64,000 nucleotides of DNA, taken from positions 52,199-116,198 of the forward strand of contig NZ_JAUFPS010000005.1 of the NCBI RefSeq assembly GCF_030409315.1, written 5' to 3'. This document shows positions 48,879-51,427 of the stretch, piece after piece (positions within the stretch are counted from its first letter, which is position 1; each line of letters starts with the position of its first letter). A program made the position numbers and the translations under genes. Below the pieces are notes generated by a model. It was not told the origin of the DNA. It did not search any database and worked only from the letters and a program-made list of their open reading frames with translations. The DNA is from Mucilaginibacter flavus (GTDB lineage Bacteria; Bacteroidota; Bacteroidia; Sphingobacteriales; Sphingobacteriaceae).

Positions 48879-50294
48879 ATGGGACAAACATTATTTGATA
48901 AGATATGGGATGCGCACGTCGTCAGTAGCAACGAGGGTTTTCCGGATATTTTATACATCGATACACACTTCATACATGAGGTAACCAGTCCGCAGGCATT
49001 TGATGGTTTGCGCACAAGGGGGTTACCGGTTTTCAGGCCAAAACAAACAGTGGCCACTGCAGATCATAACGTTCCAACAATTGATCAGCACCTCCCAATC
49101 AAAGAAGAACTTTCCCGCTACCAGGTTGATATGCTCACCAAAAACTGTAAAGAGTTTGGTATTGAGTTGTACGGCTTAGGTCACCCCTACCAGGGTATTG
49201 TACACGTAATTGGCCCCGAGCTGGGTATAACCCGCCCAGGTGGTACTTATGTATGCGGCGACAGCCATACATCAACACACGGCGCCTTTGGTGCTATTGC
49301 GTTTGGTATAGGCACATCGCAGGTAGAGCAGGTTATGGCAACACAATGTTTGCTGCAATCGCGCCCCAAAAGAATGAAAATTGAAGTTAACGGCACTTTG
49401 CAAAAAGGCGTTGGCGCTAAAGATATAATCCTGTACATCATCGCGCAGATCAGCGCGGCAGGTGGTACAGGCTACGCGGTAGAGTATGCCGGCGATACCA
49501 TCCGCTCACTGAGCATGGAAGGCCGCATGACCATCTGTAACATGAGCATCGAAATGGGTGCCCGTTGCGGATTGATCGCTCCGGACGAAACCACCATCAA
49601 CTACGTTAAAGGTCGCGAATTTGCCCCTAAAGGCGAAGAGTGGGATAAAGCCGTAGCTTACTGGCAAACACTTTACTCCGATGAGGACGCGGAGTTTGAT
49701 TCGGTTTTAAGCTTCAAAGCCGAAGATATTGAACCGATGATTACCTACGGTACAAACCCGGGCATGGGCATTGGCGTAACACAACACGTTCCCGAAACTG
49801 CTTCATTTGAGGCTAAAGAACAGGGGTCATACAAAAAAGCCCTTGATTACATGGGCCTGCACGATGACGAGACACTGTTAGGCAAACCTATTGATTATGT
49901 GTTTATCGGCAGCTGTACCAACTCTCGAATTGAAGACCTGCGCCAGGTGGCCGAATTTGTAAAAGGCAAGCACAAGGCAGATAACGTTACCGTATGGGTA
50001 GTTCCAGGCTCTAAACAAGTACAGGAACAAGCCATCCGCGAAGGACTGGACAAAATATTTAACGAGGCAGGCTTCCCGCTTCGCGAACCAGGCTGCAGCG
50101 CGTGTTTGGGCATGAACGAGGATAAGATCCCCGCAGGTAAATATTGCGTATCCACCTCCAACCGTAACTTTGAAGGAAGACAAGGGCCAAACAGCCGCAC
50201 CTTCCTGGCCAGCCCGTTGACAGCGGCCGCAAGCGCTATTACGGGGAAAGTGACGGATATAAGAAGCTTCTTTAACGAGGAAGAATTAGTCTGA
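48879..50294 (+). CDS. leuC: 3-isopropylmalate dehydratase, large subunit
   Basis: LeuC with LeuD isomerises 2-isopropylmalate to 3-isopropylmalate. The 471-residue protein starts [20 protein letters not shown] and has the aconitase-type iron-sulfur ligands in [16 protein letters not shown] and [14 protein letters not shown], plus [20 protein letters not shown] and TNPGMGIGV. Length is standard for bacterial LeuC. The ATG abuts a G/C-rich inverted repeat. The TGA lies inside the left arm of the inverted repeat that encloses the GxxExxY gene, so the reading frame ends within that repeat. Confidence 0.97.
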
Positions 50295-50836
50295 ATCAGA
50301 ATTTGCAGAATTTTAGAATTAGCAGAATAAATCAGTATTGATTAATGATATTCTAATTGTGCAAAGAGATGAGCTTACATATAAAATAATTGGTTGCGCT
50401 ATGAAAGTGCATAACACTCTTGGTAACGGCTTTCAGGAAGTAATTTACCAAAGATGTTTAGCAATTGAATTAGCAAAATTGGATATCAAATTTGTACGTG
50501 AAGAAGAACACACTATATTTTACGAGGGAATAAACGTTGGATCAAGAAGGGCTGATTTTATAGTAGAGGGAAAAGTATCCGTTGAATTAAAAGCGATAAT
50601 TAATTTAGAAGATGTCCATTTAGCACAGGCAAAAAACTACACGGTAGCTTATGATTTCCCTATCGGGTTACTCATAAATTTCGGTAGTCAAAGCTTACAA
50701 TATAAATTAATCTTCAATCCAAAATACAACATAAAACTTAATTGACATTAACAGCCAGAATTTAATAATAGGCAGGGATTTTGTGAACATAGACAAGCAT
50801 TCTGTAAATTCTTAAATTCTGTAAATTCTGATTCAG
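50291..50836. mobile_element. 546-bp cassette: 38-nt inverted repeats around a GxxExxY gene between leuC and leuD
   Basis: The left arm, 50291-50328, and the right arm, 50799-50836, are reverse complements in 34 of 38 positions (ctgaatcagaattt ... cagaat). The left arm contains the leuC stop codon. The right arm ends one base before the leuD ATG at 50837. The only gene inside is the GxxExxY protein. A mobile or intervening-sequence-like element is inferred from this geometry; no transposase is present. Confidence 0.6.
50338..50745 (+). CDS. GxxExxY family protein (PD-(D/E)XK nuclease-like)
   Basis: A 135-residue protein with the family signature GFQEVIYQRCL (G-x-x-E-x-x-Y), preceded by IIGCAMKVHNTLGNG, and a nuclease-type core: RRADFIVEGKVSVELKAI, giving D...E-x-K. 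The remaining part (AQAKNYTVAYDFPIGLLINFG) is a standard family ending. The start is probably TTG 50338: no ATG is in frame before residue 22, and the family needs the upstream helix. Function in the family is not established. It is the odd gene of a biosynthetic operon and sits in a cassette with inverted repeats. Confidence 0.85.
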   Translation: MINDILIVQRDELTYKIIGCAMKVHNTLGNGFQEVIYQRCLAIELAKLDIKFVREEEHTIFYEGINVGSRRADFIVEGKVSVELKAIINLEDVHLAQAKNYTVAYDFPIGLLINFGSQSLQYKLIFNPKYNIKLN

Positions 50837-51427
50837 ATGGCAACCAAAATATTCAAACATATACAAACCAGCGTGGTGCCTTTGCCTATCGAAAATATCG
50901 ATACGGATCAAATTATCCCAGCAAGGTTTTTGAAGGCCACTACCCGCGATGGTTTTGGCAATAACCTGTTCCGCGATTGGCGTTTTGATGGCGATGATAA
51001 CCCTAAACAGGATTTCGTGCTTAACAACCCTAACTATAGCGGCAAGATCCTGGTTGCGGGTAAAAACTTCGGTTGCGGCAGTAGTCGCGAGCACGCCGCC
51101 TGGGCCATTGCCGATTATGGCTTTGATGCCGTGGTAAGCAGCTTTTTTGCGGATATTTTTAAAGGCAACGCTCTTAACAATGGCTTGCTACCCGTACAGG
51201 TAAGTGAAGACTTTTTAAAGAAGATCTTCGACGCGGTTTATGCCGACGAGCATGCTGCCGTTGAAATCGACCTTGAAAACCAATTCATCCGCCTGGTAGC
51301 AACCGGCGAGCAGGAAAGCTTTGAGGTTAACCCCTACAAAAAAGCCTGCATGACCAACGGTTATGACGATATTGATTACATCCTGAGCAAAAAGGAAACG
51401 ATAGCCGAATTTGAATCGAAGAGATAG
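50837..51427 (+). CDS. leuD: 3-isopropylmalate dehydratase, small subunit
   Basis: A 196-residue swivel subunit of isopropylmalate isomerase. Blocks: [19 protein letters not shown], the RDWRF(D) region, [19 protein letters not shown] (cofactor loop) and [18 protein letters not shown]. Length is normal. Its ATG directly follows the right arm of the cassette repeat. The stop codon TAG overlaps the start of a period-7 tract (aggtaaa, aactgaa, aggtcaa, aggcgaa). Confidence 0.97.

Follow-up and report, generated by a model that had tools for sequence, protein, structure and literature searches.

A GxxExxY gene between inverted copies of a dispersed repeat at leuC–leuD of Mucilaginibacter flavus: a candidate repeat-nuclease system

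The window analysed here, a stretch of 64,000 nucleotides from Mucilaginibacter flavus (contig NZ_JAUFPS010000005.1, positions 52,199 to 116,198 of the forward strand), carries between leuC and leuD a cassette in which a gene of the GxxExxY family is flanked by two inverted arms. Arms and gene form one unit, further copies of the arms are dispersed over the genome as inverted pairs, arm families correspond to clades of the enclosed protein across the genus, the protein is conserved, and arm numbers are higher in genomes with the cognate gene, with exceptions. By analogy, these features are best read, with a probability of about 0.6, as a repeat-nuclease system that works like the RAYT transposases and their REPIN repeats, with an unrelated enzyme. 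GxxExxY proteins form a family of unknown function, and the name of the family model is merely that of its motif.

Repeat arms and the enclosed gene

The left arm (50291..50328, forward strand) is a copy of a genome-wide repeat, TTGTCTGAATCAGAATTTACAGAATTTAAGAATTAACAGAAT, and the right arm (50799..50836, reverse strand) an inverted copy of it. An earlier note on this DNA had given these coordinates and a match at 34 of 38 positions, both of which were confirmed by inverted-repeat alignment; 35 of 39 positions (90%) agree when the additional pair 50290/50837 is included. The note had also placed the stop codon of leuC inside the left arm and the start of leuD directly behind the right one, which is evident from the sequence: the upstream host gene leuC (48879..50294, forward strand, Aconitase family) ends with the TGA of the arm's GTC TGA at 50294, and the downstream host gene leuD (50837..51427, forward strand, Aconitase_C) begins one base past the right arm.

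Genome-wide, the pattern CTGAATCAGAATTTRCAGAATTTNAGAATT with at most 3 mismatches occurs 72 times and its reversed control not at all. In 765 kb fetched around repeat sites (with small overlaps, in which arms were counted once) a 42-nt matrix detected 86 arms, again with 0 for the reversed control, and arms within 900 nt of each other formed 24 inward-facing pairs and no outward-facing one. An open reading frame (ORF) of at least 100 amino acids lay inside one of these 24 pairs, that of the window, which spans 554 nt, whereas the gene-less pairs span 82-332 nt. When any related arm end was sought as TTGTCTGAAYC, allowing 2 mismatches, a partner within 350 nt faced 46 of the 74 strong arms, and the motif faced outward in 1 of 74. 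The pairs are mostly set between co-directional genes (17/24; convergent 6, divergent 1), and the outer arm end lies within -15 to 12 nt of the end of the gene facing it in 29 of 49 cases; the comparison set, upstream edges of frames starting away from the arm, gave 6 of 32. Since outer arm ends often abut stop codons, the exact fit at leuC–leuD is typical of the arm family.

On this reading the cassette is the copy of the repeat family that bears a gene, and inverted pairs without one lie dispersed over the genome. Of the non-autonomous mobile cassette that the earlier note had considered, the unity of arms and gene and the mobile-looking character of the arm family stand, but the arms are not private to the site. 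A newly jumped private cassette was rejected, as the arms are found genome-wide and many relatives share a GxxExxY gene at the leu site. At C24, C31, C33, C38 and C45 of genome G000, an arm of another, related family (ACAGAATTTTGTCTGAACC) comes within a few bases after a window-type arm, which looks like insertion of one element beside another.

The only gene enclosed by the arms (50359..50745, forward strand, 128 amino acids) had been assigned to GxxExxY from its letters, and the assignment holds with 127.8 bits for TIGR04256 (GxxExxY; cut-off 35) and 122.3 bits for PF13366 (PDDEXK_3; cut-off 22), these being the sole matches among Pfam and NCBIfam models. It is the single PF13366 match in the 6.96-Mb genome, and other GxxExxY genes with the same arms, which the note had suggested looking for, are absent from it. 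The gene start, formerly placed at TTG 50338, is probably GTG 50359, judged by the homologous codon of relatives, which is ATG in 15 of 19 and GTG in 2 of 19, the remaining 2 having an ATG one codon earlier in one case and being out of frame in the other. The proposed D...E-x-K core was borne out by D73...E83-x-K85, invariant across 99 sequences; in the N-terminal part G29-x-G31..E34 is invariant and Y37 nearly so, and a low nonsynonymous divergence (dN) marks the amino-acid sequence as strongly conserved.

A structure model of high confidence, except for low confidence in the first ten residues, shows likeness to Cas4/RecB-type nucleases with a restriction-nuclease-like fold, and the protein is accordingly predicted to be a nuclease of this type; its sequence matched no solved structure up to E 1. 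It differs from Cas4/RecB-type PD-(D/E)XK proteins in its length of only 128 amino acids, in the N-terminal residues just named, and in its neighbours, which are leu genes and not helicase or CRISPR genes. Two other assignments were rejected: that of a known defence gene, as no PADLOC family matched, and that of a phage or plasmid gene, with 0 phage records and 8 plasmid records, all below 60% identity.

Arm families and protein clades

PF13366 is present in 116 of 149 Mucilaginibacter genomes. The 119 different GxxExxY loci gathered are a non-random sample, comprising 30 from the best matches, places picked among the PF13366 matches listed (80 stretches), and those inside 30 leuD loci. At a threshold of 14, fixed after the control distribution had been seen, a flanking inverted repeat was scored in 94 of the 117 genus loci with sufficient flank and in 0 of 234 control places of the same size in the same loci. 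A scan of a genome collection with the clade whose arms carry CACAGAG, covering 80 loci of 532 confirmed candidates, gave 44 of 76 full-flank loci with a score of at least 14 (controls 0/152), and 36 of 62 (controls 0/124) after removal of 14 loci titled Mucilaginibacter or already included. Positive loci belong to Bacteroidota and Acidobacteriota; one Planctomycetota locus scores 12.5, and the scores of two Fidelibacterota loci and one Ignavibacteriota locus were not above background.

Arm families were assigned by text patterns written after the arms, and before the protein tree, had been viewed. On this tree (137 columns, with weak support for 48 of 116 inner branches) nine arm families, labelled in 88 of 119 rows, required 8 changes, the minimum possible. 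Adding 7 unclassified rows as a tenth group raised this to 13 changes, with a minimum of 9, a shuffled mean of 63 and 0 of 200 shuffles as low, while the 24 rows without a clear repeat were left unlabelled. Arm family follows protein clade rather than site. CACAGAG arms accompany their protein clade in six different neighbourhoods; two distant clades are represented at the junction that follows glutamine synthetase, their genes each having the arms of their own clade; and at the RuvX–O-methyltransferase junction (L044, L049, L057, L061, L176, L179, L181, L197-L199, L205, L208, L209, L213, L217, L219, L220) cassettes lie in both orientations with arms of two families, as if flipped or repeatedly inserted.

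The window's own clade, cut at an identity of at least 69% and with just five members placed by the tree, has arms that are recognisable variants of the window's in 18 of 18 loci, located at leuC–leuD (11/18), beside ilvC (6/18) and at an unrelated site (1/18, L238). Compensatory change maintaining the pairing at the leu site was set aside as a candidate, arm likeness being just slightly higher within a locus than between loci (median 0.86 vs 0.79, 25 loci) and suggestive at most. The earlier note had held that arms at many sites unrelated to GxxExxY genes would leave an ordinary gene beside ordinary repeats. Arms do lie at many GxxExxY-free sites, yet the genus-wide match between arm families and protein clades speaks against drawing this conclusion.

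Arm numbers were compared by P values that ignore phylogeny and genome size, with the arms flanking the gene itself counted in: window-type arms were present in all 18 genomes holding the clade's gene (median 5.5) and in 73 of the 131 lacking it (median 1; P 4e-6), and CACAGAG arms in all 24 genomes holding the gene of their clade (median 15) and in 42 of the 125 others (median 0; P 2e-12). The window-clade median falls from 5.5 to 3.5 once the two flanking arms are subtracted. In a cross-control, CACAGAG arms showed no such relation to the window's clade (P 0.88). The highest copy numbers in single Mucilaginibacter genomes were 143 for window-type and 198 for CACAGAG-type arms.

A proposed repeat-nuclease system weighed against its alternatives

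As described for RAYT/REP (PMC2817692, PMC3116915), an enzyme gene lies between inverted repeats, doublets are dispersed, clades and repeats correspond and repeat abundance is tied to the gene. The present cassette is similar in its single-copy enzyme gene between two inverted repeats, in the dispersed gene-less inverted doublets and in the match between enzyme clades and repeat families; abundance tracks the gene here as well, uncorrected for phylogeny and with exceptions. It falls outside RAYT/REPIN by its enzyme family, PDDEXK_3/GxxExxY with a predicted Cas4/RecB-type fold instead of a Y1 HUH transposase. Its arms differ, too, being about 40 nt long, AT-rich and, by eye, built of units of roughly 9 nt. 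Those of the window contain neither GTAG nor CGTC, the tags of the two groups that, according to PMC3733652, hold most but not all REPs. It is this RAYT/REP-like pattern with an unrelated enzyme from which we infer that GxxExxY recognises its arms. The protein, a putative nuclease by its fold, would likely bind its own arms, probably as hairpins, and nick or trim them while they spread; it would act in trans to help mobilise and maintain them, the role proposed for RAYT transposases towards REPINs.

Several observations weigh against such a system. Of the 117 loci within the genus 23 lack an inverted repeat at threshold, as do 26 of the 62 from outside it. A single origin of both leu-site clades is not rejected (approximately unbiased, AU, p 0.397), so that many tree rows are probably orthologues and independent events are fewer than rows, a limit that the neighbourhoods described above offset in part. 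The abundance comparison carries the limits given with it, and window-type arms are also somewhat commoner in CACAGAG-clade genomes (P 0.017). Moreover, they are numerous in genomes without the clade's gene (G038 50, G022 42, G124 33, G111 29, G125 27, G065 26, G126 21), and G052, with 16 arms, has no PF13366 match whatever; arms can therefore persist, or spread, without the gene. Doublets of a related family, TGAACCGGGATT, occur in G000 without a gene of that clade. Some members of the window's clade have internal stop codons. Arms without a window-type partner make up 38 of 86, and many of them are well conserved, unlike REP singlets, and score as high as paired arms; part of the lone arms face an arm end of a related family. 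The interiors of arm pairs are mostly unrelated by eye. Finally, no clean target duplication was seen by eye at leuC–leuD, hutU-hutI or murE-mraY, where a very close empty allele was lacking for comparison.

The main rival, which we consider unlikely, is a transcribed intervening sequence (IVS): the arms would pair in the leu mRNA, RNase III or the encoded nuclease would trim the stem, and the element would persist because what it leaves in the RNA does no harm, as with the IVSs of 23S rRNA. It draws on the strong predicted fold of 50270-50860 (z -4.5, 0 of 100 shuffles equally good), on the preference of the pairs for co-directional over divergent genes, and on the excision by RNase III of an IVS bearing an S23 ORF that PMC4990558 reports from another bacterium. 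Like the 23S rRNA IVS with its S23 (PF05635) ORF, the cassette is a stem of inverted repeats with a small ORF inside, and transcription of its region is to be expected. It differs in having PF13366 as its sole Pfam match and not PF05635, in lying in a protein operon and not in rRNA, and in the dispersal of gene-less arm copies. Rfam yielded no family at the leuC–leuD cassette up to E 1, and a purely RNA-level element alone fails to explain dozens of gene-less pairs with unrelated interiors. A link to IVS-type elements may nevertheless exist, since 8 of 10 PF05635 ('rRNA IVS protein') genes of the same genome, scored without matched control, also lie in inverted-repeat cassettes (score at least 14). 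Many of these ten genes (L102-L111) have arms made of short degenerate tandem units such as GGTCATTAGTCATT and TTGAATTATTGAATT.

Quite improbable in our view is a mere passenger, that is, an ordinary conserved gene with repeats that were moved by RAYT, an insertion sequence (IS) or recombination and that share its history through joint inheritance. Arms in genomes lacking the gene would suit a passenger, as would the seemingly vertical inheritance of the leu-site gene. It is at odds with one arm family accompanying one protein clade at several sites, with different clades keeping their own arms at one site, and with the 24 arm pairs in the fetched DNA enclosing no other ORF of at least 100 amino acids. 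Very improbable is operon control, with the arms chiefly a hairpin that sets the leuC:leuD ratio or acts as attenuator and the gene incidental: the arm does supply the leuC stop and abut the leuD start, and outer ends abut stop codons elsewhere, but the junction content varies among 30 examined and the same arms stand at dozens of unrelated genes.

Miniature inverted-repeat transposable elements and IS elements are bounded by terminal inverted repeats, whether or not a gene lies inside. The cassette family shares this arrangement, and differs in that the interiors of its gene-less pairs are, by eye, mostly not shared.

Beyond the window, the repeat-nuclease reading could be extended to GxxExxY proteins in general, as enzymes of widespread, hitherto undescribed systems in which each clade would own, recognise and propagate one family of inverted repeats phased by about 9 nt (CACAGAG, CGCAAAGACGC, CCGTTGATT, TGAACCGGGATT, TGAATCAGAATT and others); this extension we hold only tentatively, at a little under even odds. 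If true, it would account for a large part of the palindromic repeats found between genes in Bacteroidota and in other phyla, and RAYT/REPIN would be joined by a second partnership of enzyme and repeat, using a Cas4-like nuclease. Once repeat families are tied to clades of the nuclease, repeats and enzyme alike acquire a role that can be tested. Among the literature matches listed, no paper connected GxxExxY with repeats by its title or the start of its abstract, in a search outside which most subscription journals lie, and likewise none of those listed for PF13366 or pddexk dealt with these repeats; a full-text passage naming GxxExxY was, as far as the excerpt extends, not about repeats.

The leu site and other junctions

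The first 30 leuC–leuD junctions, the window's own among them (L112-L141 for the relatives), were found both with and without the cassette, the outcome of a survey that the earlier note had proposed. GxxExxY occurs in 10 and an ABM-like ORF, recognised by eye, in 16, both being present in G036; 2 junctions have next to nothing between the genes (2 and 9 nt), and in 3 there are other hairpins alone. The ABM-like ORF of L120 matches PF03992, and G014, the nearest relative by leuD (97%), has no GxxExxY at leuC–leuD. Where relatives have a second leu arrangement, the gene sits between ilvC and either ABM or leuB, and in many relatives the cassette is situated upstream of the ABM gene, or of its former place, at leuC/leuD or ilvC/leuB. 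Presumably, the leu-site cassette settled long ago upstream of an ABM gene since lost here and has mostly been passed on vertically; the junction pattern fits one old insertion upstream of ABM, followed by ABM loss in the window's lineage. Two independent insertions at the leu site are not claimed, as the tree separates the clades and yet does not reject a single one by the AU test given above. Junction content varies by species and may be an ABM-like ORF, TGTCATTGCGAGG palindromes, AGATTTGAGATATGAGA hairpins, GxxExxY cassettes or almost nothing.

Gene-less pairs appear and disappear between genomes. The window's genome carries a window-type pair at hutU-hutI; of the 29 other loci, 0 show a window-type arm even with 7 mismatches allowed. 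An intact arm stands at murE-mraY in 4 of 30 loci (L352, L355, L359, L362) and a seemingly interrupted one, by eye, in L358, while 8 loci have an intergenic gap of 24-39 nt alone; in L352 and L355 the stop codon of the upstream gene is the TGA of the arm, as in leuC. The murE-mraY junctions of L353, L354, L357, L363 and L377 hold an ORF that by eye resembles the four-helix bundle family, with arms like GATGTGCAGATTTCAGATGTGCAGAT; in the window's genome, inspection by eye showed similar arms close to several repeats, there with no gene of this kind.
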